From contig WHVD01000231.1 in NCBI GenBank assembly GCA_015178975.1, positions 41,744-105,743 of the forward strand: a stretch of DNA of 64,000 nucleotides. The letters are read 5' to 3'. A program made the position numbers and the translations under genes. Below are positions 2,800 through 48,222 of this stretch, piece after piece; within the stretch, counting starts at the first letter, position 1; each line of letters begins with the position of its first letter. This DNA comes from Hysterangium stoloniferum (taxonomy: Eukaryota; Basidiomycota; Agaricomycetes; Hysterangiales; Hysterangiaceae). The notes beneath the pieces are model-generated. The model searched no databases. It had not been told where the DNA came from and saw only the letters and a program-made list of their open reading frames with translations.

Positions 2800-5371
2800 T
2801 CAGAAAACAAAGAGACTGGAAAAAGAAGTTGACTGAGCATACGTCGTTGTCAACCCTTGGCGGTTTGCAAGCAGCTTTTCCCGCTTCTCGAGAGGGGTGA
2901 GGCCAGCATATAATTCGGGATTTTTCAGTTCGACTTTGTACTTCTGAATTATCATTGTGATCGCTGCAACTGACTGGATGAAGAGAGAGGTGACGGGTTG
3001 AACAGAGAAGTCATAAACTTCAGAGAGACAATACCTCTGTCTCTGCAAATCTATTTATTGACAATCAGAAACCATGCCTCATTCCTCTACGCGGTATACT
3101 CACCCACGACCAATGCATGCTCTAGCACCTTAATTGGCATCTTAGCAACGTATTTTCGTGAAATAACATAGAACTGTATGACATACCTCCTGAAAAGGGC
3201 AAAAAGGCGTCCCTCGGCCAGTCTCCCAGGAACCTTGAAGGATTGAACGCATAGGGGTCTTTCCAGTACCGAGCTGCGATGCATTCACATACATAAGCAG
3301 TCATTAAGAATATACACCGGGGAGACCCACGGTTACAGTGAAGCGCGGGACTACTAATGATCATCTTTGTTCCCTTCGGAACTGGAACACTACCGATTGA
3401 GCCATCGGGTTGTACAGCGGGTAGCGTGGTATCATCTACGGAATACTTAGGAATATTTGCAACCTAATGGGAATATTGTCAGTAAGCTGTGATATAAATA
3501 TCAGTGGGTTTCGATGTTACTGGGGGGAAAAGCCGAAGAGTCTCGTTGAATGTCGCCATGACATAGGACAAGGCTCCGAATTGTTCGTAAGTCTAAGTTT
3601 AAACTAAATCACTCTGTGAAATACTGATTTAGAGTTGATAATTACGGGGATTTCTCCGTTTGGCAGCACGGTGACAATGCTCTCATATAGCTTGTCTTGT
3701 TCCTCCTGTTCAATTGCCAAGAGACCCAAGAGGAAGCATAGTGTATGGGCGGTTGTCTGACAGCATTTATTAGTTAATGCCCAAGTTAATGTGCATATAT
3801 CACGACGAGTAAGAGTCTAACCTCATGACCTGCGATAAGAAATATGAAGATGTTTCCTGAAAGCGAGAAAAAGCCCCTTAGAACAACTGAAAAAAAGAGA
3901 TAGAAATACGATGCAATTCCAGACCTATTATTTCGTCCTCCGTCAATTTTCCGTCCTCTTTACTTGAGTCGTTCCCTTCAAGCAACGCGCTGAACAGATC
4001 ATAACGTTCCCTCACTTCAGAAGCCCGACGCTCCTCAACCATTTCTCGTAAATACGCCTTTTATCAATCATAAAGTGTAAGAATCAATGGCCAATCATAT
4101 CATATTGACATACGTTCAACTCGTCCAAAGCCAATCCAACGCTCTTCAAGAACTTAGAAAACCGGTATGCCCAGCGGGGGACTACTATTGCGACCTGAAG
4201 GTGCTTCGATACTATATGCACAGCGTCTTTGAATGAAAGTTGGTGGCCCGGAGATGCGGCCTTGTCATCGACCCATGGAATTCGGCGACCGAAGCCTGAC
4301 AGATATTAGTTTAAATTTGCGGTTCTATGCCAAATATGACTACCTGCGCTACTGATAGTAAGAAGCGTTATCTACTAATCGTAAGCCTCCTAATAGCATG
4401 TTCCCGCTTCAATACTGACCGGAAGTGTGATATCAAGACAGTGGTCCACTACGACGTCTGAATTATCCGGACCCCAACTCGCGAACATCTCCTGAATAAT
4501 CCGTACTGTCTCACTCCATACCAAGCCATTATTTCTCTGGACATTGGTCAGCACGACCTTAGGAGCCTGAGCGCTCAACAAGCCACCTCTGAAAATGTCG
4601 GCGCAGCTAATTTCCGTTGTTTCTTCCACACCTCGCCTTCTGTTACGAGGATATTTGATCCGAAGAATGCTAGAACGGTATAATCTTTCACGTCCTTAGG
4701 GAAACGTGCACGATTGCTCGTAATTTCCTTCAAGTAATCACGACAATCAAGTGTCAGTTAAATGCCGCGCAATGATGAATTGATTAATCGCTCTCACTTT
4801 GACGGTTAATGGGTCCGCCACAAAATAGGCTATGTCAATTTTCGGGAAGATACCGGCCTGGAGCAAAGCGTATCAGAAACATGTCGTCGCAACGATATCT
4901 GGTCATAGTACCCAGGTTATAGTATCCCAACCGTATTGAGCATATACTGACGAAGTACAATAAGGGCGGCGCGAAACTAAAGCAGATGGAAAGCATCGAC
5001 ACGTACTTTTATATTTATATTCCATGGACCAATTCGGACCCAGGGAAAGTCCAGGAATAGGAGGGAGTAACTGCCTGTATTTCAGCACATGTTTCCTTTT
5101 CGGATGCATCAAACCAAATGTTGACATACGAAACCCAGAAGATGGACTCCTGAAATGGGATGGCGAATGCCAGGATGGTGTCTAGAGAATTAATAAGTGG
5201 AAGTAAGGTGGATGAATTCCTTGCGTTCAACAGTGTAGCGCCGTGAACGTACCCGACAGACTTGAGTACCCTCCTGTATGTCAAAAAGCCATTGAGTGCT
5301 AGTAGCCCCAGTACACTCCCCGCTAGCAGCTGTAGAGTGGCTCTACTCGGAATGAGGTCAACCAGAGACAT
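2800..5371 (-). CDS. Cytochrome P450 monooxygenase (multi-exon)
   Basis: Heme-thiolate monooxygenase, expected to be ER-anchored. I place the start at 5371 (MSLVDLIPSRATLQLL), which gives a hydrophobic N-terminal anchor; the in-frame codon at 5404 is TTG. Hallmarks appear in order: a segment reading GEVWKKQRKLAAPTFSE spliced to RNNGLVWSETVRII (near 4630-4500), GFGRRIPWVDD (near 4290), the I-helix AGHETT split by an intron (near 3850-3780), the K-helix ETLR (near 3560), RYWKDPYAFNPSRFLGDWP (near 3270), and the Cys-ligand loop FSGGARACIG. That loop is divided between an exon ending at 3187, a 25-base exon at 3128-3104 and a 16-base exon at 3050-3035. The last exon starts at 2973 and runs to the stop at 2800. 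All joins are GT-AG and keep frame. The gene looks intact; its substrate cannot be told. No obvious biosynthetic partner lies beside it. Confidence 0.9.
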
Positions 5372-6670: not shown

Positions 6671-8464
6671 TTAATCCGCAACATTCCCGCCACCTTCATC
6701 AACCGAATCTAGCAAGCTGGAATTAAGGTATCTTATTAGAACCTATCGACCGACGTGCGAGAAACAACGAGCGTGCGTACTTGTATTGCTTCATTAACGA
6801 ACACTCTCCGCCATTCTCCAAATCGATGTTATACGAGTAAAAGTACCCTTCAGACGAAATGACCATGACCTGCGGCATTGTGCTGTGCAGCCCCACAAAA
6901 GAAAGGTATGACCAGATACCAGATAAGCTAACCCACACACGATAGAGGCATATATAACAACGCGTCAACGCACCCGCTTAGTGCAACAACACACCGCGCG
7001 CCACTTGTCGGCAACTTGAGGAATGCAAAATCCCGCGACGGCTCCCACATCTCCGACAGTGTGTTTGGAAGATACCCGCCCATTGACGATGTCAGGTTCC
7101 GTGTTAGATACAGTGACGACCGACCGCGGCCACGGCTGTAAGTAGGGTTAGATTGGTTCATACACAACTTGTGAGAATGGGGTGTTTTTCGCGATTATTA
7201 TAAGATAAAAGCTTGAAACATAAACATACCCAGCCTTCTTCTTCCCATCAATGAACGCCTCATAGCCACCTTCCATACCAGCCGTTCCTTCTCGACTATC
7301 CATAGATCCGGTAGGACTTCCTGGACTAGGACCTTGGCCCTTATCCGCCTTCCCTTTCTCCTTCCCCCCCTTCTTCTCTCCCCCCAGCTTGAAAATATGA
7401 ACGGTATCATGCGCAGAGCTCACAGCCAACAACGTCGACACGGCATTAAAGTTGATCGAATATATCCGCGTTGCCCTCGTCCCCCTCCGGAACTGATACA
7501 GCTTCTCCGCACCGGGGACGGACCACACGCGGATGACCGTGCCCTTGTCCGATGCGGTCGCGAGCAGCGTTCCAGTCGAGTTGAGCGCGAGGAAGGAGAT
7601 GGGGGCCTTGTGTGCGCGGATGACGTTGGCGACTGTGAGGTTTTGTGTGGAGAATATGATGACGTCGCCGCTTGGGGACTCCGATGATGAGGCGGCGGCG
7701 GGGGTGGGCGAGGTGGGGTTGGGTGCAACCGTGGAGGGCGAGGGGACGGGAGAAGGGTATACGAGATATGAGTTGTCTGAGGAGGGTGATAGGGCGCAGA
7801 TGGCTGTGTGCGAGGGGTGAGTACACATGCTGCGTGGAGGATGTGGTGTGAAAGCAACGATTACCTTCTGGGTTTGGAGTCGTCTCGATGACGTGTAATA
7901 GCTTCATATTCGAGATGTCATAGATATAGATCTCCACCTCCAGCACAATAACCAGCCTCTTTCGGTTGAGCTTCACTGCCAGTATCGACGATGGAAAAAG
8001 CAGCTCGCAGATCATGGATTGGCGCTGCTCGCACGGTCATGTTCCAACACGTCGAAAACGAGACATGGTAAGCTCACCTTGGTATTAACAATCTGCAGCT
8101 TTCGGGGACTCGACTGCGGCTGATCCGCCGCTCCGACCAAGGCAATAAGAGAGGTGCAAAACAACATCTCCACAATGCCCCGTGCGCCATCCACTGCAAT
8201 GCAACCTTCGTCGGTCACGACACAGCAACGAGCAATAACCAAAACACACCCGACGTGAAAACCCTTCCAAATGGATCGCAATTCGTTATACTATACCCTT
8301 TACGCGTCCCAACAGAGATACAGCTACCCCCATACAACGAAATCACAATGAGCCACAGAAATAAGAATCTGCAGCAGCAACGAAGCGCGACCTTACCTAA
8401 AGTCTTGGTTGAAATTGGCAAAGAGCATATGGGAGTTTGTTCTGTCTGCATGAGGGGTGACCAT
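6671..8464 (-). CDS. atg18: Autophagy protein Atg18 (PROPPIN, WD-repeat phosphoinositide-binding)
   Basis: PROPPIN beta-propeller that binds PI3P and PI(3,5)P2 and works in autophagosome formation and vacuole morphology. Exon 1 starts at 8464 ([14 protein letters not shown], then FANFNQDF) and splices to a frame reading [20 protein letters not shown]. Later come [16 protein letters not shown] (near 8180), [19 protein letters not shown] and [17 protein letters not shown] (near 7990-7890), [18 protein letters not shown] (near 7800), a Ser/Pro-rich loop, and [19 protein letters not shown] (near 7600). The diagnostic FRRGTR phosphoinositide-binding motif is near 7480. A Lys/Gly-rich low-complexity insertion follows [10 protein letters not shown], then a C-terminal blade ([22 protein letters not shown], near 7000) and a final exon ending EGGGNVAD at 6671. 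The gene is intact. Its first exon was duplicated with the peptide cluster to its right. Confidence 0.93.
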
Positions 8465-8857
8465 GGCCTGTTCGCGGTTTTTGGATAGCTACGCTCGTGT
8501 TTGCTGCGAATGTCGAGGTGAGGGGCAATTACGTAACCCTTGTCTCACGTAAGCCATCATGATGCCTCCGGCCCTAGCCACGTTGATCGTCAACTGGCAC
8601 AGGTATCCCTCAAGATGGAGAGATATTTCTGCGCGCAACTTACCATGCAACGGAAATCCGTTCGCGTAAAATGAAATGAAAAGCTGAGTCCATCAGTGCG
8701 GGCTGAGCTAGAAAGATAATGGTGATCCGGTTATAGCTCACACCATCTCATCAACATGACAACTCTGCTAAAAAAAAAACGAAGGCACAATTATATAAAT
8801 TCGGGCCAAACTCAAAACTTGTTAAATAACTTTCTCTGAGGCCGGACCCCATTAAAC
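8465..8857. promoter_or_regulatory. Divergent promoter region between ATG18 and peptide gene 1
   Basis: The 393 bases separate two divergently transcribed genes. A TATA box for the peptide gene is at 8792-8800. A block near 8523-8562 (GGCAATTACGTAACCCTT, then a CATCATGATG block) recurs at 10046-10079 upstream of peptide gene 2, showing that the duplicated unit included this promoter. Confidence 0.6.
8792..8800 (+). promoter_or_regulatory. TATA box of peptide gene 1
   Basis: TATATAAAT lies 66 bases before the ATG, in the block AAGGCACAATTATATAAATT, which is conserved in all four peptide genes. An upstream ATGACAACTCTGCTAAA element is shared with copies 3 and 4. Confidence 0.6.
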
Positions 8858-9077
8858 ATGAAGATCAATACAACAACCACCCTATTCGCACTCTGCACGT
8901 TAATTGCCACAGCGATTGGAAACCGGATCCCTCAACACCGTAAGTGCCTATTTTCAATACCCTTGTTCGCTCACGGATAGTACTGTCACAGTTACCCCTT
9001 CTTCCGACAGCACATCAGGGGGGGAAAGCAAGCATAGACTAAAGACTGGCTTGGAAATCAAGCCGGTAGGGTTCTGA
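8858..9077 (+). CDS. Small secreted peptide precursor, copy 1
   Basis: Two exons, 8858-8939 and 8992-9077, joined GT-AG with phase 1, encode 55 residues. A signal peptide (MKINTTTTLFALCTLIATAI) is followed by GNRIPQHLTPSSDSTSGGE, SKHRL and the C-terminal tail KTGLEIKPVGF before TGA. The same layout recurs in three further copies downstream. Leader, intron and stop context are conserved, while the tail is unique to each copy and always ends in Phe. There is no cysteine after the leader, no CaaX box and no dibasic KR or RR site, so it is neither a classic mating pheromone nor a Kex2 repeat precursor. I do not recognise the family. A secreted signal, toxin-like or post-translationally processed peptide is possible. 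Confidence 0.78.
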
Positions 9078-9402
9078 CGCTGATGCCTCAATTAAATTAA
9101 AGGTAATCAATTGTCTATGGACGGGTCATTCCTTGCGTGCTAATTGTCAATAAATTGCAGTTTATATATAAAGTTCACAAGGCAATCGTATAGGGACTAT
9201 ACTTGACCGTGTAGAAGTGAAATCGAAAGGGCATTTTACCGACTTAATTATTAATGGCAGTTGATTTCTTTCCAGCTGAAGGGAGCAGAGCGTGATCATT
9301 AGTGCTGAGAAAAGGTATATTTATTGTAGCTATGCGATAGAGGCAAAGAAATACAGCAACAGGTCCCACGAAGCCATTCTTACACTGGTTCCCACTCCCA
9401 CG

Positions 9403-9559
9403 TTATGGATGGATTGTGTAACACCACCAGCAAATATCTCGGATCTATACAACTCCAGCAATAGAAGTTTATTTCTTGCCCAAGTCGAAGTGTACATAGT
9501 ACCAGAAGATATAAATAACTCGTGGCGATGCGTTCTGATCCTCATGAACCGTACATCAC
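9403..9559 (-). pseudogene. Truncated 3' end of the roadblock dynein light chain gene
   Basis: Reading leftward, an acceptor-like TTAG is followed by a frame giving GDVRFMRIRTHRHELFIS, then an intron and a frame giving DPRYLLVVLHNPS. These match the last two exons of the intact roadblock gene at 15405-15590 almost residue for residue. The stop codon is lost here (TGG instead of TAG) and no upstream exon is present. It is a leftover of the segmental duplication that multiplied the peptide gene. Confidence 0.85.
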
Positions 9560-9907
9560 CTAACACGAAAAAATGAAAAGAAACAAAAAAGAAAGAAAGA
9601 AAAAGGAAAGAAAACTCCTTTCGGTCCCCCATATTACTTCACGTGCGGGTGTGCTCCACTCTCTGTGGCGTACTGCTGAGCTGATCTTCTTTCAAGTTTC
9701 ACGCGTCGTCTGTGTCACCTCACCCATTTTGTTTTTGCGTTTACCTCTCTCTTTCACTCATCGCCTTTTTGTAGTTACTCCCACATGAGAAATATCATGG
9801 AAAAAATAACAAAAACAAAACGCGCTCTCCTATGCTATGGCGGAAAACGTCCATTCTCCAGGTCCCGCCACGTTTCCGAGAATCTGCAACGGCGAGCGTG
9901 AACTTAC
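9560..9907. other. Duplication junction, no gene
   Basis: Between the roadblock remnant and the ATG18 exon-1 remnant. Purine-rich (GAAA) runs near 9570-9620 and no domain. This is where two copies of the ATG18-peptide-roadblock segment were joined. Confidence 0.5.
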
Positions 9908-9973
9908 TTGAAGTCTTGTTGAAATTGGCAAGAGTATATGGGAGTTTGCTCTGTCTACATGAGGGATTACCAT
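9908..9973 (-). pseudogene. Duplicated first exon of ATG18 (frameshifted)
   Basis: The frame from 9973 begins MVIPHVDRANSHIL, matching exon 1 of the intact gene ([14 protein letters not shown]). One T is missing in the following TCTTTGCCAA block, which shifts the frame and destroys the FANFNQDF segment. The donor GTAAG is retained at the exon end. No further ATG18 exon follows on the left, so the piece cannot encode a PROPPIN. Confidence 0.88.
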
Positions 9974-10547
9974 GGCCTGCTCGCGGTTTTAGATAGCTAT
10001 ACCAATAGTGTTTAAAGTAATTATAGTATTTAACTGACTGCGATGAGAGGCAATTACGTAACCCTTCAGGCATCATGATGTAGTGCCAATGGAGCGAAAA
10101 AGAGTATATACTTTATCCCCCAAGATGAAGAAATACTTTCAACATACCAAGAAAGAGCACCCGAGCAAATGCGCTTTACGCACGGTACAAAACCTATAAG
10201 TGCCACTGTGCGGGCTCAGCCAAAGGGCATGCCAAAGGGTGGACACCTGCGCCGACATATGTTTAAGCTATTTACTAGCCAGTGCGCTGCATCTCAAGCA
10301 ATGGAAAAAATACTGCGCCATAAGTGAACCGGCTAAAACAATGTATTGTCCTGTGTTGATCCCCGTTGGTAACCGCATCATGATCACCTTCCACCGCCTT
10401 CCCTTGAAAGGAGGTGAGCCGCGGTAAAAACGACTAGTGAGGTCACGACGTCATTGGCTAAATTGCCTTATTATACGTTAATTGAAAAGAAAGAAAACGG
10501 TACTCCAATACTCCCAGAGCTCACTACATCTGTCGCGATGGCATAAT

Positions 10548-10555
10548 TATATAAA
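10548..10555 (+). promoter_or_regulatory. TATA box of peptide gene 2
   Basis: TATATAAA 62 bases before the ATG, inside GGCATAATTATATAAATTCA. The more distal upstream sequence differs from the other copies. Confidence 0.6.
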
Positions 10556-10609
10556 TTCATGCCAAACAAACTCGACTCTTATTAAAAGACTCTCTAATTC
10601 CCCTTTAAC

Positions 10610-10837
10610 ATGAAGATCAATATAATAACCACACTATTCGGACTCTGCACGTTAATGGTCACAGCAATTGGAAACCCAATCCCTCGACACGGTAAGTGAC
10701 TCGTTATGTTGTTTTGCAAACTCCCGTTCTCGCTCACAGATAGCATTGTCGCAGTTACCCCTTCTTCTGACAACACATCACGGGGAGAAAGCAAGCATAG
10801 ACTGGCAACTGAGACAGATATGGGAATTAAATTCTGA
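10610..10837 (+). CDS. Small secreted peptide precursor, copy 2
   Basis: Exons 10610-10691 and 10755-10837 encode 54 residues. Signal peptide MKINIITTLFGLCTLMVTAI, middle GNPIPRHVTPSSDNTSRGE and SKHRL, then the tail ATETDMGIKF and TGA. The intron is canonical (GTAAGT to CGCAG) and close in sequence to those of the other copies. Divergent from copy 1 mainly in the last ten residues. It lies 1.75 kb downstream of copy 1, right after the ATG18 exon-1 remnant. Function unknown. Confidence 0.78.
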
Positions 10838-11199
10838 TGCCTCAGTTAAATTAAAAGTTATAGGTGATCGGTTGCTATGGACGGATCATTCCTTGTGTAC
10901 TAATTGTCAGTAGGTTACGTTTTGTGTATCAAGTTTACAAGGCAACCGCATCGAGTGTATATCTGACCATGTAGAAGTAAATTCGGGATAGCATTGTGCC
11001 AAACTAATGGCAGAGTTCTTTTTTTGCTGAAGGGAGCAGAGGGTAATTTCAGAACATTTTCTTAGATCCAGTCTCAGCCAAATTCTAAATCATGATGCAC
11101 TGAAATCAGAATCATGCACCACGAAACCGGCGCGAATCAGACGATGGCTTCCCCTTGCGTGGCTTGATCTTCAGGATCTGCGGTGGCTATCAACAATGG

Positions 11200-11560
11200 C
11201 TATCCAAACATGATTGTAGAACTAAAACGGAACAAATCAGACTGTGGTTATTAAATAAATATAACAGAGAACCAGTCCTGGTAAAGCTATAGGCTTCTAT
11301 TATGCTCATAGCCTCAATTGCAACTGTATAACTACCGTATATGACATACATGACGACCCGGAGGGGCTACACATAAATTACACCCATACGGTTTAAAATG
11401 TATAAGATGGTTATATAGATAGAAGGGTTGAAGCCTTACGCACCATAGGGAGCCTGTAAGTGCGGGATCAGGCAGGGGGCATCCTCTGGCTAAAGCCCCG
11501 GACTCAGAAATAGTCTCCGCCAACAAATTTTCAAGCCGTCCAGTATCCACATCAATTTAG
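11200..11560 (+). repeat. Downstream flank of peptide unit 2, repeated at about 12510-12870
   Basis: The block starting ATCAACAATGGCTATCC and containing TGTAGAACTAAAACGGAA and AAGATGGTTATATAGA recurs after peptide gene 3 with small insertions and substitutions. No coding potential is evident. It defines the right part of the unit shared by copies 2 and 3. Confidence 0.7.
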
Positions 11561-11589
11561 AAAGAATCTGTGGTAAGTAGGCTATATAG

Positions 11590-11880
11590 GCTGCTTAGAC
11601 CGCCTAGACCATATACTTACAATTGGTCGAGGATAGTCGAACGGCGCTAAAGAACTAGTTGATCTAGCATTGTTAAATGAAATAGCTGGGCCGACTATTT
11701 CGCCTAGAGGAGCTAGCGGTTTGGAATCCCGCTCCTGAGGGAGCGCGCTGCATTTGAAACAACGCTCCGCCACATTCAATTTGAACTAGCTCAAATGATT
11801 TATCTTGAGAAAAAGCTGTGTTGCCTCTTGGCAGCGGCACCTTCCGGATCTACGGCCTTCTCTTGAGAGTTGATGGGCCA
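11590..11880 (+). repeat. Upstream flank of peptide unit 3, repeated at about 14335-14640
   Basis: Shared blocks include ACAATTGGTCGAGGATAGTC, ATCTAGCATTGTTA, TTTGAACTAGCTCAAATGAT and CACCTTCCGGATC. The copy before peptide gene 4 has an extra short tandem duplication of a TTCTCTTGGGAGCTGATG block. This pair defines the left part of the unit shared by copies 3 and 4. Confidence 0.72.
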
Positions 11881-12012
11881 TGATAAAACCTGTGAAGGCA
11901 TATAATTGCCTCATAAACGGTGCTTGGCATCCGCAGAATTTACATCGCCATCTACCCTACCATATGTACAACCATCATAATGACAACTCTGCTAAAGAAA
12001 TGAAGGCATAAT

Positions 12013-12021
12013 GATATAAAT
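12013..12021 (+). promoter_or_regulatory. TATA box of peptide gene 3
   Basis: GATATAAAT 59 bases before the ATG, preceded by the ATGACAACTCTGCTAAA element shared with copies 1 and 4. Confidence 0.55.
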
Positions 12022-12071
12022 TCAGACCAAACTCGAATCTTATCAAAGAACTCTCTAATTCCCCCTTTAAC

Positions 12072-12291
12072 ATGAAGATCGTTATAATAACCACACTATT
12101 CGGACTCTGCACATTAATTACCACAGCAATCGGAAACCCAATCCCTCCACACGGTAAGTGACTCATTATATTGATTTCAACTCCCTTGTTCGCTCACAGA
12201 TAGCACTATCGCAGTTACTCCTGAAGGCATATCAGGGGGAGAAAGCAAGCATGCATTGGAAGTTTCTAACCTTGGGACAGTACCCTTCTGA
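12072..12291 (+). CDS. Small secreted peptide precursor, copy 3
   Basis: Exons 12072-12153 and 12215-12291 encode 52 residues. Signal peptide MKIVIITTLFGLCTLITTAI, middle GNPIPPHVTPEGISGGE and SKHAL, then the tail EVSNLGTVPF and TGA. Two codons shorter than copies 2 and 4 in the middle segment, with frame kept. Exon 1 differs from that of copy 4 by only two residues, yet the C-terminal tails share almost nothing except the final Phe. Confidence 0.78.
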
Positions 12292-12509
12292 GGCTCAGCT
12301 AAATTAGAAGGTAGTCGATTGTCTATTGAGAGGTCATTCCTTCTGTACTGATTGTCGGTATATTACGGTTTATAGTTGACCATGGAAAAGCAATAATAGC
12401 AGTTGACGTATTTTCCGGCTGAAAAGAGCAGAGTGTGATTTTAGATAATTTAGCAGGTCCAGTCTCAGCCAGATTCCAGATTATTCAACATGTAGTAGCT
12501 ATCAACCAA

Positions 12510-12870
12510 TGGCTACGCAGACATGGATGTAGAACTAAAACGGAATAAATCAGACTGTGATTATTAGATCAATAGAACAGGGCAGTGACTCACTAGTCCT
12601 GGTTAAATTATAAGCCTCAGCCATGTAATCATATCCATACTGTATAACTATATATACATTACTCAGGGTGACGAGAGGCTACAAATAAATGTATGCACAT
12701 ACAGTTTAAATATAAGATGGTTATATAGACTTACGCACAATAGGAAGTCTATATCAATAAGTACGGACTCGGACAGGGAGCATCCTCGTGGAGGGAAATC
12801 TCCTGGAAAAAACCACTATAATCCCGGAAATACCCTCCGCCAAGATGTGTTTAAGCTGTCTACTACATCA
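12510..12870 (+). repeat. Downstream flank of peptide unit 3 (copy of 11200-11560)
   Basis: Partner of the 11200-11560 repeat. It keeps the CTCAGCCAGATTCCAGATTA block after the peptide gene, the ACTAAAACGGAATAAATCAG block and the ATAAGATGGTTATATAGACT block. Diverged by point changes and short indels. Confidence 0.68.
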
Positions 12871-12889
12871 GGAAAGTGAATGAGGCGCC

Positions 12890-14330
12890 TAAGGTGTAGG
12901 GGATGTATAATTCGAATAGGTGAGCTAAGAAACGGAGGCTTTTACTACATAGTTTACCTAGGCCGCTAACAGCGATATCGCTGAAAGTAGTCTACACAAC
13001 ATTATTTGTTCAAACCTCCACACATCCTACAACCCACTTGACAGCGAGCATAGCTTAAATTTCAACATCTAGCTTTCTTTTCTCCAACCCCTTGCACTTC
13101 AAAGTTTCTGCCAATGATCTTCCACCCATCTGCCCGACAATATAATAAAACGCATGCCCCATATTTAAACATGATCCAATTGGACTTTAAGCATGCGAGA
13201 ATATGCATGGTTGACAGGGTGTATCTGTGACATTGATCAACGATAGCTACAAAGCGTTAGATCCATTCTACAAGTTGGAATCGCATCCTCACCCCTAGTA
13301 ATCACAACGCCACCTCAATCCATCCTTCACAGCTCCGTCAACAATGTAACGTTTTATAGTTATCCCAGGCTCTGTATCGTAGAGATGTTGTGCAGATATC
13401 ATCATGTTCATTGTTGGTTCTGTAAACAGCTCCCGACATCTTCAAGGAAAGTTTAAGTCATCTTTCCCACAAATAATGTTTATCTGGAATGCTTTGTTTA
13501 GAATGATGTTGATTTATTACATGATTATGTGTGTATCTTCACAGTCTAGAAGGCCATGTTGAACATGACGACTGTGAAGTTAATGTCAATGCATTCTCAC
13601 CTGCTGTTTCGCAGCTTGCGACAGGATGTCAAGATGCTGGCTTATTACTGGGAGGCCTCATCACTGTTAAAACAATTTCCCAGAAAGGGCTACCTTAGTG
13701 GTTACGTTAATGCGGTGTGAATAGAATTTTGTTGCAGAGATTGTCATTAGTGACAATTTTCCGTGCTAAGCTACTGCCGCCGTAGCTCTTCTTCCCCAGT
13801 CGTGAAAGATCGAACCGACGATGTAAAAAGGGGTTTCAAAGGGAGGCCGAAGCTCAAAGTTGCGGAATGGGTAATGTATATTCACGTTAATTGGTCGATG
13901 TCTTTCTTCTTGAGTCATGTGTTGGATCCAGTTGATGTTTTCTGGACATATTATATTTTATGGCTGTGTCATCGGGATATTCCTGGTGTTTTCTACATAT
14001 TTACTGCCCTATGGCGAACTACTTGGCTGATTATTGTCTTAGTCTAACAATGGGCAAATTCTCTATGATACTATGCACCACAGATTTTTAGCCATTGAGC
14101 ATCACTGGTATGGCGTTCTGTTGTTTAGTTTAGTCTGTTTCCTACTTCACATTTCATTATGCTAGGCACAAATTCAGGTTTGTTTGCCATCGGCATTATA
14201 CTGTATGTACCTATGAATATCAGAAACCAATTCAGTTTGCTAATATTTTGTTAATTGCAAACACTCTCTATTAAATATGCAATATCCTACCTCAACAACA
14301 TTACCCGATAAAACTTCACTAGGTTTCCTA
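12890..14330. other. Unique insert between peptide units 3 and 4, no gene recognised
   Basis: About 1.4 kb that has no counterpart in the other units. An open frame of 94 codons (13763-14047, plus) has hydrophobic stretches but no known domain and no conserved neighbour. I could not find terminal repeats that would mark it as a mobile element. Confidence 0.35.
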
Positions 14331-14334
14331 AGTA

Positions 14335-14640
14335 GACTCCCTAGACCGCTTGGGCCATATACATACAATTGGTCGAGGATAGTCGAACCGCGCTAGGGAA
14401 CTGATTAATCTAGCATTGTTAGATAAAATCTCTGGGTCGGTCGCTTAGAGGAGCTATCGGCTTGGAACTCCACTTCCTGATGCAGCGCGAACAATGGCAA
14501 AAACGCTCCGTCACATTAAATTTGAACTAGCTCAAATGATGTATTACCTTGAGAAATATCTGTGTTAATTCTAGTCGGTAGCAGCGTCACCTTCCGGATC
14601 CACGGCCCTTTCTTGGGAGCTGATGGGCCTTCTCTTGGGA
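14335..14640 (+). repeat. Upstream flank of peptide unit 4 (copy of 11590-11880)
   Basis: Partner of the 11590-11880 repeat with an added local tandem duplication around 14610-14650. It leads directly into the promoter of peptide gene 4. Confidence 0.7.
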
Positions 14641-14799
14641 GCTGATGAGTCATTGTAAAAACATGTGAGATCACATTAGCGACCTCGTTTTGTAATGATA
14701 GAGAAAGATAACAGTGCTCCAGTATTCACATCACCATCTATCTCACTACATGTGCATCTATCATGGTGACAACTCCGCTAAAAAAAACAAAGGCATAAT

Positions 14800-14807
14800 T
14801 ATATAAG
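14800..14807 (+). promoter_or_regulatory. TATA box of peptide gene 4
   Basis: TATATAAG 59 bases before the ATG within GGCATAATTATATAAGTTCA. A GTGACAACTCCGCTAAAAAA element lies just upstream. Confidence 0.58.
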
Positions 14808-14858
14808 TTCAGACCAAACTAGAATCTTGTCAAAGAACTCTCTAAGTCCTCCTTTAAT

Positions 14859-15084
14859 ATGAAGATCGTTATAATAACCACACTATTCGGACTCTGCACA
14901 TTAATTGCCCCAGCAATCGGAAACCCAATCCCTCCACACGGTAAGTGACTCGTTATGTTGATTTTCAACTCCCTTGTTCGCTCATAGGTAGATTATCACA
15001 GTGACCCCCTCCCCTGGCGGCACATCAAGGGGAGAAAGCAAGCATGCATTGATAATGTCCTTCCCTGGGATGGTACACTTCTGA
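14859..15084 (+). CDS. Small secreted peptide precursor, copy 4
   Basis: Exons 14859-14940 and 15002-15084 encode 54 residues. Signal peptide MKIVIITTLFGLCTLIAPAI, middle GNPIPPHVTPSPGGTSRGE and SKHAL, then the tail IMSFPGMVHF and TGA. The sequence after the stop continues into the intact roadblock gene, as it does after copy 1 into the roadblock remnant, so copies 1 and 4 sit at the two outer edges of the cluster. Confidence 0.78.
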
Positions 15085-15404
15085 TGCCGCAGTTAGGTTG
15101 AAAGGTGGTCGGTTGTCTATTGAGGTCATTCTTTCTGTACTGATTGTCGGTAAATTACGGTTTATAGTTGACCATGTGGAAGTAATAATAGCAGTTGACT
15201 TCGTTTCCAGCTGAAAAGAGCAGAGCGTGATCTCAGATAATTCAGCAGGTCCAGTCTCAGCCAGATTCCAGATTATTCAACAGGTCGTCTGATTCAAATC
15301 ATACCGAGAAAAGGTATCTTTGATGACAGCTATACGTACAATATAAGACAGAAGCCTTGAAATGAGCAACAAGTCCCACGAAACCATTTTACACTAGTTC
15401 CCCT

Positions 15405-16067
15405 CTACGTCATGGATGGATTCTGCAGCACGACCAACAAATACCTCGGATCTATACAGCTCCAGCATCAGAAGTTTATCTCTTATTTGGAACAGCTAAA
15501 GTCGAAGCCCACATACCAGGAGATATAAGTAACTCATGGCGATGCGTTCTGATCCTCATGAATCGTACTTCATCCTAACACGAAAAAGAAAAAACATTAC
15601 CATCAACCAACTCATTCCATTTCAAGAATTAAGCATAAACTCACATTCTCCCCTCCTCCAACCTCCCTCAACCCACTCGTACACGCATCCACGATCCTCA
15701 TCACAGCACCCGCATATTTCTTCCCCTGCTCCCCCTCAAAAACCACCCCCGCATGTCTAATAATACTAACAGGCTCCGTAGTCACCCGCGACAGCACAAG
15801 ATACCCCAACACCGATCGATGAGAAATGAGCGTCGACAGCGTCTGCTCTAATTCCGGTGGTGGTGAGCTGCTACTGCCCGCCGGTGATGTGGTCACGATC
15901 GCTGCCAAAGGCGCGGTGAACGTGGACGCGGATGGGTTCTGTGCAGGTGGAAAGACACTTGTGGATGTTCCTTGTGATGGCTGTGAACCTCCGTGGTCAT
16001 AGTTAAGGACATTTTTCGCTGGGAGGAATAGTTACTGGTAAGACTCACCATCGTATTGTGAAGTGTG
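15405..16067 (-). CDS. Dynein light chain, roadblock/LC7 type (5' start unresolved)
   Basis: Roadblock/LC7 proteins are small dynein-associated dimers. The domain starts near 15850 with LEQTLSTLISHRSVLGYLVL and continues ISIIRHAG-like and KKYAGAVMRIVDACTSGL. It then splices (donor near 15640, acceptor near 15578) to DEVRFMRIRTHRHELLISP and again to DPRYLLVVLQNPSMT with TAG at 15405. All joins keep frame. Upstream, a Ser/Pro/Gln-rich stretch (GGSQPSQGTSTSVFPPAQNP) leads through a probable intron near 16020-16053 to a frame ending PPHTSQYD. No convincing ATG was found, so the true start may lie further right. The last two exons were copied to 9403-9559. Confidence 0.85.
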
Positions 16068-16079
16068 GGGCGGAGTTTG

Positions 16080-16704
16080 AAATATAATCGATGTTGGGCT
16101 ACATACGTATATTGCGATATTGCAAATATTTATTTTATTTGGATGTCCTTGATGGCGTGCGAATGAAATTAAAGCATGTCTGGCGCTCCCAAAAAATGAA
16201 AAAATGGCATATGAGGAGGTCCAGTCGTCGGAGAACAAATAAAGAATAGTAAGAAGCAGAAAAGAATTCCTTCACCTTGAAGGAAAAGAGCAGACTCGTC
16301 ACAAGGTATCATATATTTGCATTTTGGGTAAAGTAGTAGCCTAGGGTTTGACACATGGAACTTCATTTGCAATTGAGAACGTTAACCAGCCCGTCAACCA
16401 GGATTTGTTCGCACCTCGGAGGAAGGCGAAATTTTAAAGGATGCAAGAGCGCTATTTTGAAGGCAATTGAAAACATTTTGCATCATGTGTGCATCATGTG
16501 TACATCCGATTCCTTCTTTAAAATCTCCCTGGCTCCGCCCTTGTTCCAACAAAACCGCCCGCATACCTAAGCCTTTCCATCTGTCCTTGAAGTTTGAAGA
16601 AGTGGACACGGTAAATGGGTAAGATATGTAATTTACTCCTTCGATTCTTCAGGTTGAGCTCCCAAAGAGTATCCAACCTAATATCAAGTTGGTTTCAATT
16701 TATA
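16080..16704. other. Intergenic or 5' part of the roadblock gene; nothing certain
   Basis: Minus-strand frames here lack ATG starts (one begins with TTG). They may include the missing first exon of the roadblock gene or its promoter, plus the 3' flank of the decarboxylase gene on the right. Confidence 0.35.
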
Positions 16705-18293
16705 CTAGGAGCGATGGCACAGCATGTCCCATACCTTCATTAATGTCTCGATGGGCTTCTTTGAAGCTTCTACCAAATCACCATCGAATCTGGGAATGTA
16801 GATTATTTAAATACATTATGTAATTATGAGTGTAAATAGTCACTGACTTAATCATTCTCTCTGGGAAGACGGTGATAACTGTTGAACCTCCATACGCGAA
16901 GTACCCTGTTCCATAAGAGTGAGGAAACACCATTGTCACTTCCAGTCAAATTACTTGCCAAGTTCTTCTCTTTTCTTGACTTTATCTCCCTTCTTGACAG
17001 TAAAGTGGATGCTTCCCACCAGCAAAGCACCAATCGCAACAAAGGCGATAGGTCGACCCGTTAATTCATGCGTGAGATATAGAATGGACCTGCGATTAGC
17101 GGTAAAAACGTCGAAACCGGGTTCATTAACTGCCTGGGGATTGACGGTGTAATATTGACTACCAGAAGAGAAAACTAAGCGAAGATTCAGTAAATCAGTT
17201 ATTTGTAAGGACAGACCCTTCAACATCCACGACATCCCCAACGATCACATCTGCGGGACTGTGGAAACGATGATAATCGGCCGGCGCAAGGCGGAATATC
17301 GCGAGGCTTGCATTCTCAAAAACTGACACATGGGGAACATCGAGGTGCGTCTCAACGCCAGCCGAAGGCGCTAGAAGCTCAGGGAATGTAAATTGGCGAC
17401 CTTTGACCCTAATCATGAGTTAGCAAGAAGATTAATGTGATAAATAAATAGAATAAAGGAGCAAGATTCATACCAAAATTTGCATGCGTCCGTAATATTC
17501 TCAAACACTGTTAGCCTGCAATCTGCCGCACTGCAAAATGTACGGGGGTTATCAGCATTCTGGACAGGTCTCACTCCGTGTTTGAGTTTTCTGAAAACCA
17601 GCTTCTTTAGAATTGTTCAATTTTAGGCAAGCGAAAGAAATACCGGTAGAAAAATTCATTGAAGCACTTATATCCTGCCTTGATGTCTTGGACTAGTAGC
17701 TCCCCGATCTCGAGACTGTACGTCTCGATGAAGCTGGGGATCGACGCGACGCTGGCAAGAGAATCGAATACGACGCCCTCTTTGATCGATTGCTCGCGGA
17801 GCTGGTCCTCGACAATCTTGGTCTTCACAAGCGCCGATTCAAGCTTTCCACAGAAAAGGAGATGCATTCCGAGACGTGCATCTACGGGGATCAGTTTAAA
17901 TGTGCGGAAAGCGAAAACAGTGTAAAGGGCAACTGACAAATCGGCATGCTCTCGAAGAACTGCTCCCTCGTTTCTCGGACGACCACGAAATTACCGACGT
18001 GGTGTTTACTAGCGAATCTTTCGAGACCGGGGATATACTTTCCTAGCCATGGATGAGAATGAACAGTGTGTCCAGGTGTAAGGATAGTTTTAGAGATATC
18101 GTGAGTCCCACCCTCCGTGGTATCAGTCTCGTCAACCAGTTTATTCAAAGCGGTGGAGTAGTGTTCATGTCTGGCTTCTGTAAAACTTGTAAATGATATT
18201 TTCAAAGTATATCTACCTATTACACAAACCAGGAAGATTATCAGGGTGTATATCTTTGACGCTAGCCACATCATTGGGATGCAAGCTAGTCAT
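16705..18293 (-). CDS. Phosphatidylserine decarboxylase family protein
   Basis: Pyruvoyl-dependent decarboxylase family. Members make phosphatidylethanolamine; fungal relatives also include tryptophan decarboxylases of secondary metabolism. Exon 1 starts at 18293 (MTSLHPNDVASVKDIHPDNL) and splices to EARHEHYSTALNKLVDETD. Then come GHTVHSHPWLGKYIPGLERF, IEDQLREQSIKEG-like, and the family signature KCFNEFFYR (near 17650). Next are KGRQFTFPELL, RLAPADYHRFHSPAD with the substrate-site His (near 17270), YYTVNPQAVN, LVGSIHFTVKKGDKVKK and YFAYGGSTVI (near 16880). The GGST serine is the expected self-cleavage site that generates the pyruvoyl group. The last exon ends DMLCHRS at 16705. At least seven exons, apparently intact. 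The actual substrate is not decidable from sequence. Confidence 0.88.
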
Positions 18294-18519
18294 GGTCGTA
18301 TCCAAAGATGTAGTTGTGTTTTAGAGTATTTAGTATTTAAGATGCCCATCATCAGAATGTTTGATGCGACAATAGAAATGCTAAAGATAATAAGGTACAC
18401 ATATGACTCTGTGGGAACCAGTGGTGCTTACCAATTTTGAAAGCCGTCACACGAATCTGTCACGCGTTGTCACAACTGGGCTCGACTTTGTACACTTAAC
18501 ATTTTTGAACGCCGCCCCT

Positions 18520-20218
18520 ATGCAACGCGAAGTTTTTATAATTAGTGATGATTCTGACAAGGAGCCAGGATATTTCAGCGATGATAGCGAAGTGGTCTGC
18601 GTCTCCCAGCCACCTTCGCAATTGCCACCTTCGTCAAGTGCTCCGCCCTCTAGCCAGGAACAGGCGTATGACCTTTCAGAATTGGATTTAGGGGACGAAT
18701 CTGATGTGGAACTTGATATTGGCGAGGTGCCCGCGAAGGCAAAGTTCCTTAAGAACGGCGTTGCTTCTGGATCAACATCACCACACGTACGATTTCTTCT
18801 TTTTTCTTTTTCTGGCAGAAGTGACATTACATAAATAATAATAATAATAAACTTGCAGGGTCGAATCAAGCAACCTTCCATTGCAACAAACCAACTAAAG
18901 AGTGTTGAAAAATCTGACCCCGACTGTAATGAAGCTGCTTTCCCCCCGAAACGAGCCAAGAGGGGGAAACAAAGTGAAGAACAGAAAGAGTTTAAGAAAG
19001 TCCAAAAGGTACGTGAAATCCGTTTCCGTGAATGCGTGTCTTATTGCGACAAAGGAAATCGAGAAGTTGAGAAAAAAAGCTGCTGCCGCTGCCAAGAAAG
19101 TGAAACCCTTCATCTTACAGGATTTCTTTTTATTGATCTTTTTTTTCTTTTGAAATTTACTAGGAGGCAGACAAAATTGCCGCTACTACCTTGAGAAACG
19201 TTAATAAATTGGTGTCAGACAAGAAGTCCACACTGAAAGATATCACAGTCGAACTCTCTTCCAATCTTTTTTCATCGTCGCTCTCTACCTCACTTAAGGA
19301 GACAATGGCCAATTTTGACAGCACAGTACAACCCATTTCTGACCCAGTTGTCAAAAATACCGTCACCAATATGCCGACAAACCTGAATGCCCTAGGGCTG
19401 AATTTAGTCCGCTGGCAACGACGAGTGACCGCCATATATGATCAGAATCTCAAGCGATGGAATCCATTAGAGAAACTGTTCATACGTACCGAAGGTACCT
19501 ATCTTATATATGTCACAGGAGATGATGTTCTCCGCTCTATCGATGCCAGAAACCCCAGTCCTTCACTCCAACAACAGGTTGAAGCGCTTCGAATGGCTCT
19601 CGGTCCAAAACATTATATTCATCTTATGATAGTAAGATTCAAGGCCAAGACTAACATACTCCAACGTGTGGAAAGAGAATTGGTCGAATTACAGGTCCGG
19701 GAAGGTGTCTATGTCGAGGAAGTGCCAAACGAAAAAGAAGCCGTGACCTGGCTTTATAATATTTCAGCCGATTTGGGTGGGATCTTTGATTGACCCTCCA
19801 CTATTACATTAACTTGCCTTTTTAGGTATTAAGCCTTACAAACTGGTTGAAAGGTCACATCTAGCTTTCTACAGCGCACCTTCCACAGATCACCAAGTGG
19901 GTAAAACTCAATGGGACACTGCCAAAAAGATGCTTGCCCGACTGCCGAGGCTTCCAGACACGGGAGCAGCTGCGATCATAAAAGAATATCAGTCGATCAA
20001 TAGTTTGATGGAGGCGTACAATGACGCAGAAGCGCAAGGTAGCAGTGGAGCGTTGCTGTTACAAAATATCGAGGTTGGCTTATGGTTAATCGTATGAATT
20101 GGGTCTGCTTACAATGTTAATGTTTGTGCAGGCTTCGAAGAAAAGACTGGGACCTGTCATGTCCCAAAGGCTGCACAATGTGATGTGGGGACGAGACCCC
20201 AAGGCAATTGTCAATTAA
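18520..20218 (+). CDS. eme1: EME1/Mms4-like regulatory subunit of the MUS81 structure-specific endonuclease
   Basis: The non-catalytic partner of MUS81 for resolving joint DNA molecules. The N-terminus at 18520 (MQREVFIISDDSDKEPGYFS) is acidic and Ser-rich, as in this family. A basic coiled-coil-like segment (KRAKRGKQSEEQKEFKK, then EIEKLRKKAAAAAKKVK) follows, and then NKLVSDKKSTLKDITVELS. The ERCC4-like core holds RRVTAIYDQNLKRWNPLEKL and HLMIVRFKAKTNILQRVERE. An intron after ADLG (donor near 19776) joins IKPYKLVERSHLAFYS, a tandem-helix region (TAKKMLARLPRLPDTGAAAI), and a last exon ending RDPKAIVN at 20218. Intact. Its 3' half is duplicated and decayed at 25.7, 36.4 and 47.8 kb. The assignment rests on overall layout, and a nuclease-pair partner is not in view. 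Confidence 0.82.
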
Positions 20219-20475
20219 TCCCGTAGCTGGAAAGTACCATTATCTAGTAATATACTCGGTTATAATTCTTCATATAACGATTTTATCTTTATTCTAAACG
20301 TTAATTTCATACCATTTATTAACTTTTGAGGCAATCGGATGGTGGCGTGAACCATATGGGAAGCATGCACGGAGCTGCTCAATAGTATTAATCATAAATT
20401 TTACAATCTTCTCCGAGAAAATGATCGTTGTTTACTAGGGTCAGGTCACCATCCCAAGGGTAGCAGCATATATCT

Positions 20476-20589
20476 ATGGATGATTTACCCTTCATTAAAG
20501 TCGCTCTAGGTGCATGCGGTACTGGGCCTGGAGTGCAATGGCTCATGAAACATTTCGGGGCATCGATGACTCCTTATTCGCCTGTTTGA
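20476..20589 (+). other. Short open frame, conserved in a duplicate at 47994-48107
   Basis: A 37-codon frame (MDDLPFIKVALGACGTGPGV, then QWLMKHFGASMTPYSPV) in the 3' flank of EME1. The duplicated copy keeps start, stop and length with about eight replacements. No family recognised. It could be a chance frame in a repeat or a small gene. Confidence 0.25.
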
Positions 20590-20599
20590 ATCGTATGCA

Positions 20600-21345
20600 C
20601 TTTGATGAGCAGGAATGGAGTGAATATTGTACAAGCCACCAGTAGTGGATTAGAGATGAGCATTCGCGAACAATCCCAGGAATTTGAAAGGAGCCGCCAG
20701 AACCCTAGTTTCGCGCACTCTTTCAGCTCACTACTAGTAAACGGGATTGGCCTGACAAGGAAGGGACAAGAAAGGCTTCATTAGTAGACTGGCAACGGTA
20801 ACGACGAATGATGATGCCTTTGGACCACCAGCATCCTGGATGTAAAAATTTCTGTAAACATCATTACACAATACTGCTACCAAAATGGTAAAGCTCCAGT
20901 GGCACTTTGTAAAGGCGCAAGGTCGTGTTTAAGAGTCATTACCAAGCGAGTCCAAGGAACACATACAGCCAAGGACCCTTGGGGAATAGGGTCGGTACCC
21001 CTAGATCGCCATCCATATAGAGGTTACTCTAATGAAAAAATACGACAAAATAGTGCTTTTTTCAATGTTACATGCACCATTAGGGGTAAAAGCTTATTGT
21101 ATGGCACCATGTCATTGAAGGGGATGTAGTAGAAGAGACAGGAAAATGAAAAAATAATAAAACAATCCCGAAAACGGACACGATCACCGAGTAGTTGGTG
21201 AAGTAGTGAGTGATGCTCGATTGATCCATGGTCACCATACAATCAGGGCGAAGTTTTCACGTCATTTTGCAAAGCGTGACTAGGGTACCTTGATATTTGG
21301 GGTTTACGCTAACTCAAAATAGATACTGCAATTCACTCACAGAGC
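20600..21345. other. No gene recognised
   Basis: Short frames only. The left end (to about 20715) is the rightmost part of the EME1-downstream block that was duplicated to 47750-48222. Confidence 0.4.
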
Positions 21346-21349
21346 GGAG

Positions 21350-21603
21350 GGCTTGTGAGTATGTGAGGAGCTGCATCTCATCCTTCCCTTCAGAGCCGGT
21401 CTCGTCGTCGGCCTCGAGGTTGCCGTCCACGTCGAACTAGATGTCACACACTCAGCCTCAGGGTTCGAAGGTGCTGGCAAATCTCGCTTTGCCATTTCAT
21501 GAGGGGGAATGGGGCTGCGACGGTAAGACCATTCCATCTCAGGAGCATCCTTCAAATAGCTATTATCATCAAGAGCTGGGGAAGTGGCAAGTGTTCGGGC
21601 CAT
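21350..21603 (-). other. Possible gene fragment with acidic C-terminal frame
   Basis: From 21603 a frame starts MARTLATSPALDDNSYLKDA and contains PEMEWSYRRSPIPPHEMAKR. Near 21430 a different frame (FDVDGNLEADDETGSEGKDE) looks more protein-like, so a frameshift or tiny intron may lie between. A GTGAGT donor follows at the left end. No family recognised. Confidence 0.25.
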
Positions 21604-21682
21604 GGAAGAAGGAAGGTAGGTGCAGATGAGACTGTGTCTGGGACTCGACCAACTGTACAGTAGCTAAAATTGCCATACTCCT

Positions 21683-21855
21683 GTTAAGTTTTCAGTGGCG
21701 CTGTTCTTAGACCGTATAACTTTCCGTTTGTCTGAGTAGGTAACAGTTAACTCGTTGTAAACGGATGAGTACTATAATACAAGTCTCATCCATATACCCT
21801 AGTAACCTGCTTACTAATAGCCTGAGTCCTTGCCGCTCGTTTACCAAATTCCCAA
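21683..21855 (+). repeat. Better preserved copy of the repeat at 75-275
   Basis: Contains GACCGTATAACTTTCCGTTT and AACTCGTTGTAAACGGATGA, which match the window-start copy with CpG sites intact here. Element type unknown. Confidence 0.45.
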
Positions 21856-21859
21856 AAGT

Positions 21860-23184
21860 TAACAACTCCATCACCTCTCTATAAGGATAGTTCTATTGAC
21901 CAATATCCCCATCCTGATAGCTTTGAAGAGGTATCCTTACGGGCTATTCAGTTACTTATCTACTGAGTTGGTGGACAAAGTTTTCTATCCTTATTTGGTA
22001 GTTAGGGGCACTCGACTGTACCAGGATTGAAAGGCATGTCAGGGCAGCAAGAAATTTGGGAGGCGCGTATTGCTATATATATGACCAAAACCAGCGAATA
22101 CTATCTCCCTGGTCACTAGGCCGGTCAAGTAACACTAGTAAACGTTTTAATCGATTTTCCTTACACTGAATGGCTGCATTGGGCTAGTACGACAGATAGT
22201 TCACGACACTAGTGAGCGAATTTGCAAAGTGTCGTGAAGATACACGTTGTTGAATGCATGTCATATTCTGATAGATATGGAATGTCCGTTATCTACTCGC
22301 TGAGGCATTGAGACCCCTCTGCGAGTCCTGGACGTCTCAGGTAGAAAATTCCTGGAGATACATTTTTACTGAAATATACAGCTTTGGATGCCGGGTAGTC
22401 CCATATATACATGGTTCAACTGAATTTTATGATTTTTCTGCTCTTCTGTCAAGATGAGGTGACTTCTAACGGGATTAGGTTAGTTCTCATCATTGTCATA
22501 CAGTATCCTAGGGGTCCATTAGGGCAAGATGGTGGGTGTACTTCCGCAGTCTAGCTTGTAATTGGTCATAGATCTCCTAAAGTCGATCCCGATTATCTGG
22601 GGGAAATAGATAAATTGGAAATAACCGACAAGAGGGCATTCGAGGCAGATTCAATACCTGGGGAATGATCTCAGAAATGTGGGCACAATGTTAGTCTTAA
22701 ATCCCTTCTTTGTGGAGAAACTAGTAAGGGCTCTCTGATATGTTACCGGTGATTCCTAAACTGTATCACGAGATCGCTCGCGCTATCTTCGACTCAACTT
22801 GCCGATCTATCATGTCAGTCGGGCTGGACAACGTATAATGCAATGGTTTGGCGACACGTCAAATTGATACAAACATCAACGCCTTTGCACGGAACCAAAT
22901 CCTAATCCTTTCATTTGTTATTTGATATAAGTATATAGTCCATGCAACGTGCAGGTCATCCCTTAACGTTGTCCCGCCCCTTCCGCAATCAATCCACGTT
23001 GCGGGGTTTTTCAGTACGATTCAGCTCGACCAACCAACAAACCACAATGTCTTGTCATAGTCGATATTCGTGAGCTCCATGTCAAATATTGTTACGGTGC
23101 ATTATATCTGAGTAGATCACACAGTTCTATCGCTCATGCCCTCAATCCGACATGCCGGCTGGCTCCCAATGAAGTGTAATTGCC
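21860..23184. other. No gene recognised; upstream of the Cys/His-rich gene
   Basis: About 1.3 kb without recognisable domain or repeat. It should hold the promoter of the gene starting at 23185 or 23266. Confidence 0.4.
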
Positions 23185-47749: not shown

Positions 47750-48222
47750 GTCTGCTTACAATGTTAATTCCTGTGCCAGCTTTGAAGAAAAGGCTGAGAC
47801 CTGTCATGTCTCAAAGGCTGCACAATGTTATGTAGGGATGAGACCCCAAGGCAATTGTCAATTAATCCCTTGACCCTTCTATCTGGAAAGTAACATTATC
47901 CACTAATATACTCAGTTATAATTCTTTATATAATCATTTGATCTTTATTCTAATATGGAAAGGTCACCATCCCAAGGTTATCAACAAATTTCTATGGATG
48001 ATTTACCATTCATTCAAGTTGCTCTAAGTGCATGTGGTAGTGGGCCTAGAGTGCAATGGTTCATGAACCATTTCAAGGCATCAATGACTCCTTATTTTCC
48101 TGTTTGAATGGTATTCACTTTGAACAGGAATAGAATGAATATATACAAGCCACCAGGAGTGGATTAAGGATGAACACTCACTTAAAATCTGATTAATTTG
48201 AAAGGAGCCACCAGAACCCTAG
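47750..48222 (+). pseudogene. Third decayed copy of the EME1 3' end and flank
   Basis: Starts within the last EME1 intron (TCTGCTTACAATGTTAATTC), includes the last exon and 3' flank, and ends at GCCACCAGAACCCTAG, equivalent to about 20715. Element D starts exactly there, so a deletion or insertion joined them. Confidence 0.83.

Follow-up and report, generated by a model that had tools for sequence, protein, structure and literature searches.

The false truffle Hysterangium stoloniferum (Hysterangiales) is an ectomycorrhizal fungus whose genome is reported in PMC7550596. The window analyzed here is a stretch of 64,000 nucleotides (nt), bases 41744-105743 of the 105,743-base contig WHVD01000231.1 (C148 below), taken from an assembly of 111 Mb in 554 contigs. 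Between positions 8858 and 15084 of the window lie four open two-exon genes on the + strand, g1 to g4, whose predicted products have 55, 54, 52 and 54 residues, respectively. The genes have one layout in common (Table 1): a signal-like leader, a pro-region, a GESKH(R/A)L boundary and a C-terminal core of 10-11 residues. Each has an 82-nt exon 1, a single putative phase-1 GT-AG intron and a Phe-TGA end. An earlier splice acceptor was considered as the common one and was rejected: although g2 and g3 have it in frame, it does not yield the product in g1 and g4. An earlier note on this DNA had described four tandem genes in this interval, with a shared leader, the GESKH(A/R)L boundary, a phase-1 intron and a Phe-TGA ending. 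All of these were found as it described them, and the four core sequences it listed are confirmed.

The leader contains a hydrophobic stretch with a 12-residue Kyte-Doolittle maximum of 2.26-2.48, a measure of hydropathy only, and a plausible (-3,-1) signal cleavage site after TA or PA. The sole Cys of the precursors, residue 13, lies in this leader. In the middle region g1 is the outlier of the four (GNRIPQHLTPSS), and at the C-terminus the final three residues fit [V/I]-x-F in all four genes. Pattern matching places a TATA-like box 58-65 nt before the ATG of every gene, where it may act as a promoter element. Neither a dibasic [KR][KR] site nor a core Cys was found in the five sequences examined (g1 to g4 and an allele of g3); this motif check bears out the statement of the earlier note that CaaX box, dibasic site and core cysteine are all absent. 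The cores have no Cys, Trp or Tyr, and the precursors have neither a fused methyltransferase nor a follower.

In precursors that are otherwise conserved, the last 10-11 residues are genuinely hypervariable. Over the six pairs formed by g1 to g4, nucleotide identity is 83-98% in exon 1, 73-90% in the intron, 74-90% in the pro-region and 72-88% in the 3' flank; in the core it is 37-63% on gapped alignment. The cores were also compared without gaps from the C-terminus, over 30 sites, against the pooled intron and 90 nt of 3' flank by one-sided Fisher tests. The six pairs have 21, 18, 20, 19, 21 and 11 core mismatches of 30 (the last being g3/g4), and in the same order 24, 20, 20, 19, 22 and 11% mismatches in intron and 3' flank, giving p values of 3.5e-6, 2.8e-5, 1.8e-6, 4.1e-6, 9.3e-7 and 1.6e-3; the pairs share genes and so are not independent, and all the tests derive from just four genes, which are related. 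The core has diverged about three times as much as the intron and 3' flank.

A four-way alignment gives the same picture. The core is its deepest trough, with a mean pairwise identity of 0.21 in the worst 30-column window, and the windows listed that are clear of the core have at least 0.46; in this sliding-window profile the g1 core start was placed 2 nt late. Pairwise profiles are less clean, since homology fades at the ends: four of the six pairs have non-core windows that are as low (1 of 411, 17 of 414, 26 of 411 and 31 of 401). Against shuffled sequence, three pairs of cores are no closer than the shuffles, 19-32% of which do at least as well, and the result is borderline for g1/g3 (4%) and g2/g3 (9%). 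Relatedness is clear for g3/g4, where 0 of 1000 shuffles did as well and 4 of 10 residues are in common (S, G, V, F). The earlier statement that the last residues "differ completely" goes too far for g3/g4, as it does for the [V/I]-x-F ending common to all four.

Two features point to coding function. Within the coding sequence, lengths differ by whole codons: by two in the pro-region of g3, by one in the core of g1 and by two between the g3 alleles, a pattern that the intron lengths (52, 61, 61 and 63 nt) do not follow. At g1 to g4 and their alleles, all eight of the full-length copies examined have an open frame. In leader plus pro-region, the proportion of non-synonymous differences (pN) is below that of synonymous differences (pS) in five of six pairs, g2/g3 being the exception (0.14 versus 0.13). 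The g3 alleles have two non-synonymous and no synonymous differences in this part, and give no sign of constraint.

Protein searches of the genome returned 12, 14 and 13 matches, all on C148 or on the allelic contigs C306 and C473, except for one weak match on C17 (E 0.39) that looked unrelated and was taken as chance. As the matches, save the one on C17, are confined to a single locus and its allelic contigs, a transposon or dispersed repeat was rejected. C306 is allelic to C148 over 10425-13250 (97.4%) and 14789-23975 (99.5%) and bears g2, g3 and g4; C473 (6-9191, 99.1% identity) bears g4. The four allelic copies (g2, g3 and g4 on C306; g4 on C473) all have open frames at this one locus, in contrast to the chance open frames in a repeat that the earlier note had named as the outcome that would undo its proposal. 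The g2 core is unchanged in the C306 allele, the g4 core DNA is the same in the C306 allele, and the g4 core residues are the same on both C306 and C473. The C306 allele of g3 has the core EISNLGIPTVPF, with two substitutions in 30 sites and one 6-nt indel on gapped alignment; the intron and 3' flank of the g3 alleles differ at 1 of 151 sites.

The locus is a birth-and-death array. A fifth copy, g0, lies outside the window at 12837-12603 (-) of C148; its stop has turned into a sense codon, with four residues added, and no TATA-like box is found in the 110 nt upstream. Its core, ATETDMGIRF, is alike in 28 of 30 bases to that of g2, while the two genes have 41 differences in the 147 sites of intron and 3' flank; either selection held the core, or exon 2 was converted. 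A sixth copy, near 8928 (-) of C148, stops short after 17-19 residues. The assembly contains no full second copy of the g1 segment, which may mean that g1 is hemizygous or that this part of the assembly is collapsed. The piece immediately after g4 and close to the phosphatidylserine decarboxylase gene (15407-15593) is repeated after g1 (9400-9579), and a stretch beside the ATG18 gene (8421-8481) is repeated upstream of g2 (9930-9990). These duplicated flanking pieces record growth of the array. The g4 region is represented by three related sequences (C148:51407-65561, C306:10425-25797 and C473:6-9733) at 97-99.5% identity, more than two haplotypes would supply; this could be assembly duplication.

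By Pfam, the order of neighbors is a P450 fragment, ATG18/PROPPIN, the array, phosphatidylserine decarboxylase and EME1/ERCC4-like exons (Table 1). The WD40/PROPPIN exon at 7148-7903 (-) is 98% identical, over 79% of the query, to an H. stoloniferum protein. No biosynthetic cluster was found near the array in a partial scan of 32 of the 146 open stretches of at least 60 residues in window positions 1-28 kb. Genome-wide there are 17 matches to UstYa and six to S8 peptidase, none of either on C148; the UstYa matches fall in several groups on C549, C536, C279, C110, C476 and C246, possible dikaritin-type clusters away from the array. Retroelement matches (reverse transcriptase, integrase) start near 29.8 kb of the window, and matches to reverse transcriptase, RNase H and integrase occupy 29849-32580 (-), 40435-41163 (-) and 48186-51092 (+). 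A GESKLIF...NICQF stretch occurs five times in the window (35273, 44878, 27510, 38431 (-) and 47066 (-)) and resembles a stretch of C71; it probably represents a transposon family with no relation to the GESKH boundary.

Table 1. Features of the g1-g4 array and its neighbors, in window coordinates.
Feature	Position	Strand	Basis
P450 fragment	3125-3463	-	Pfam
ATG18/PROPPIN gene	about 7148-8036	-	Pfam
g1 TATA-like box ATATAAA, 65 nt before ATG	8793..8799	+	pattern match
g1 exon 1, signal-like leader MKINTTTTLFALCTLIATAIGNRIPQH	8858..8939	+	sequence
g1 intron, phase 1, 52 nt, GT-AG	8940..8991	+	sequence
g1 exon 2: pro-region LTPSSDSTSGGESKHRL, core, TGA	8992..9077	+	sequence
g1 hypervariable core KTGLEIKPVGF	9042..9074	+	alignment
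g2 TATA-like box, 61 nt before ATG	10549..10555	+	pattern match
g2 exon 1, leader MKINIITTLFGLCTLMVTAIGNPIPRH	10610..10691	+	sequence
g2 intron, phase 1, 63 nt; earlier in-frame acceptor would add 5 residues	10692..10754	+	sequence
g2 exon 2: VTPSSDNTSRGESKHRL, core, TGA	10755..10837	+	sequence
g2 core ATETDMGIKF	10805..10834	+	alignment
g3 TATA-like box, 58 nt before ATG	12014..12020	+	pattern match
g3 exon 1, leader MKIVIITTLFGLCTLITTAIGNPIPPH	12072..12153	+	sequence
g3 intron, phase 1, 61 nt	12154..12214	+	sequence
g3 exon 2: VTPEGISGGESKHAL, core, TGA	12215..12291	+	sequence
g3 core EVSNLGTVPF	12259..12288	+	alignment
g4 TATA-like box ATATAAG, 58 nt before ATG	14801..14807	+	pattern match
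g4 exon 1, leader MKIVIITTLFGLCTLIAPAIGNPIPPH	14859..14940	+	sequence
g4 intron, phase 1, 61 nt	14941..15001	+	sequence
g4 exon 2: VTPSPGGTSRGESKHAL, core, TGA	15002..15084	+	sequence
g4 core IMSFPGMVHF	15052..15081	+	alignment
Phosphatidylserine decarboxylase	16954-17244	-	Pfam
EME1/ERCC4-like exons	19164-20094	+	Pfam

Searches for relatives were made at several levels. When the four precursors were joined end to end, which admits longer relatives, the protein collection yielded 5047 candidates, none at E <= 10. IMG/VR gave 26 pattern stretches, none confirmed as relatives; PDB held no relative of g1 to g4 and Pfam no match to the precursors, NCBIfam gave one weak match in one of the four (YnaM/YnfT, E 0.092) that was taken as chance, and Rfam and tRNA searches of the window returned no result. 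A DNA pattern for GESKHxL has 18 matches in the genome, nine of them within the family, and the backward control has five. Five of the nine non-family matches were translated and showed no leader by eye; the other four are one identical 20-mer. Among the openly licensed papers searched, none contains the strings GESKHRL, GESKHAL, GNPIPPH or GNPIPRH, and no matching family appeared among the papers listed on fungal precursor peptides. The protein collection includes proteins of Hysterangium, Ramaria, Gautieria, Sphaerobolus and Clathrus, yet returned no annotated copy of g1 to g4. Since the protein search found no annotated copy even from the source organism, it says nothing on distribution, and unannotated relatives elsewhere are quite possible. 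The collection does hold another protein of C148, which suggests that two-exon genes of ~55 codons are overlooked.

Known peptide systems offer two partial models. Qsp1 of Cryptococcus neoformans is described as an 11-residue peptide freed extracellularly from a secreted precursor by the protease Pqp1, the mature peptide being imported by Opt1 (PMC7537855; PMC6571750). Going by that description, the proposed likeness is one of layout only (secreted pro-peptide, short linear product, non-Kex2 protease), the leader here being judged by hydropathy and the product predicted. Among basidiomycetes, Qsp1 is the closest working model; to our knowledge, it has no hypervariable tandem family. The mature exons of conotoxins are stated to show about three times the divergence of the non-coding DNA around them (PMC10561478). 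As outlined in that source, conotoxins have a conserved signal and pro-region and a variable C-terminal part, and the divergence ratio of about 3 found here is close to theirs. The same mode of evolution is seen in g1 to g4, with a C-terminus more divergent than the non-coding flanks and a conserved leader. Conotoxins are often Cys-rich, with a cysteine framework in the mature part, whereas the g1-g4 cores have no Cys; the organisms belong to different kingdoms, and no homology is claimed. In evolution, conotoxins are the closest model. The layout of the four genes resembles that of Qsp1 and their evolution that of conotoxins, a resemblance that does not establish membership of either.

Most of the other classes considered were rejected. 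MSDIN genes of Amanita are described as clustered, with one 52-58-nt intron, and encode precursors of 33-37 residues that have conserved ends and a variable core of 6-10 residues; a 10-residue leader ending in Pro precedes a core ending in Pro and a 17-residue follower (PMC5159998). Among the features given there, short precursors, variable core, clustered genes and one short intron recur in g1 to g4, which differ in a signal-like leader, an (R/A)L boundary without Pro, a core at the very C-terminus and no follower. KEX2-processed repeat proteins (KEPs) of Agaricomycetes are presented as precursors that are secreted and give rise to short linear peptides (PMC9769878), as is predicted for g1 to g4. 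KEPs contain several cores flanked by KEX2 sites, whereas one core and no dibasic site are found here. The KEP/dikaritin class was rejected on the absence of KR, RR and KK sites from the five sequences and on one core per precursor of 52-55 residues, and dikaritins also on the absence of a UstYa gene from C148 (17 elsewhere in the genome). An a-type mating pheromone of basidiomycetes does not fit, as there is no C-terminal CaaX, all four products end in [V/I]-x-F and residue 13 is their one Cys. In borosins the core is fused to a methyltransferase domain; precursors of 52-55 residues without a Pfam match do not fit that class. Plant IDA-type hormones carry a contiguous PIPPSxPSxRHN-type motif, and a mimic of these was rejected by eye, PIPP, PS and SKH being present but not contiguous and a terminal Asn absent. 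There is some likeness to MiSSP effectors, for which induction in symbiosis is the defining feature: the g1-g4 products are small, probably secreted and apparently lineage-specific, and come from an ectomycorrhizal fungus.

We put at about even the chance that g1 to g4 belong to a birth-and-death family of secreted single-core precursors in which the C-terminal peptide is the diversifying product, freed by a non-Kex2 protease. The precursor-like anatomy of fixed leader and variable core that the earlier note had recognized is supported, and so is core divergence above that of local non-coding DNA. We infer secretion, cleavage and target from features of the sequence. The N-terminal ~19 residues would direct the precursor into the secretory pathway and then be removed, probably after the Ala of TA-IGNP. 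The pro-region of ~25 residues, ending in GESKH(R/A)L, would provide the recognition site of a non-Kex2 endoprotease that frees the C-terminal 10-12 residues; the lack of a dibasic site excludes standard Kex2 release. Cleavage at (R/A)L is suggested by the abrupt edge at that point, together with the common [V/I]-x-F-COOH ending, which also supports the free C-terminus as a probable part of the product. Following tandem duplication, the cores changed more quickly than the non-coding DNA beside them, as would be expected for differing or moving targets, such as host-root, competitor or self-signalling receptors.

Several points weigh against this interpretation. The genes are known here as DNA, and the proposed cleavage site is guessed from the point where conservation ends. 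An alignment of the four as query drew one candidate from the protein collection, and none at E <= 10. Constraint on leader and pro-region is not strict, the g4 alleles having three non-synonymous and no synonymous differences there, and the near-identical cores of g0 and g2 show that cores are not always fast. Moreover, pS is 0.29-0.90 in the core, versus 0.11-0.35 in leader plus pro-region. With so many synonymous differences, codon-level selection is inseparable from local DNA replacement or hypermutation, which describes the cores equally well. Core cassettes might, for example, have been swapped in from elsewhere by gene conversion or template switching, with no divergence in place. The near-saturated synonymous sites of the core favor this, as does the core shared by g0 and g2 despite their differing flanks; we nevertheless regard it as unlikely, as the g3 and g4 cores are recognizably related and the 30-nt g1 core (minus its Phe codon), the one of four cores so searched, has no other copy and hence no donor within 3 mismatches in the assembly.

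The secreted product may instead be the whole peptide of ~33-36 residues left after signal removal, its conserved part serving as scaffold or carrier and its tail as specificity element. No known protease site lies at the boundary and the coding sequence outside the core is conserved throughout, both as this would have it, but so abrupt an edge between GESKH(R/A)L and core is usual where a pro-region is removed; by that analogy, which is not proof, we think a whole-peptide product doubtful. The leader-core layout and the 17 UstYa-domain matches in the genome would also suit a ribosomal natural product whose core undergoes cyclisation, methylation or oxidation by enzymes encoded outside this locus. 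This is quite unlikely, given that 0 of 17 UstYa and 0 of 6 S8-peptidase matches lie on C148, that the partial Pfam scan near the array met housekeeping genes and one P450 fragment, and that core Cys, Trp and Tyr, a fused methyltransferase and a follower are all missing. Very unlikely, in our judgement, is that the frames are unconstrained remnants of a duplicated segment whose cores drifted: one copy has indeed lost its stop and lacks a TATA-like box and another is truncated, but under drift the core should have diverged only as far as intron and 3' flank, and it has diverged about three times as far; the open frames in all eight full-length copies examined at g1 to g4 and their alleles and coding length changes in threes also speak against it.

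More speculatively, the array may be a conotoxin-like locus in an ectomycorrhizal basidiomycete, in which tandem duplication and hyperdivergence restricted to the core generate new linear peptides of 10-12 residues, released by an as yet undescribed protease other than Kex2 and aimed at host-root or competitor receptors; we offer this tentatively. Standard gene calling misses genes of this sort, so that the class could be widespread and still have escaped notice. Should the peptides be produced, they would constitute a class of fungal peptides distinct from the KEP, MSDIN, dikaritin and CaaX kinds, and the combination of leader, GESKH(R/A)L and [V/I]-x-F would be a clear marker for mining other Phallomycetidae. 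They would also supply a tractable set of candidates, as signals or as effectors, in a symbiotic lineage in which secreted peptides have received little attention.

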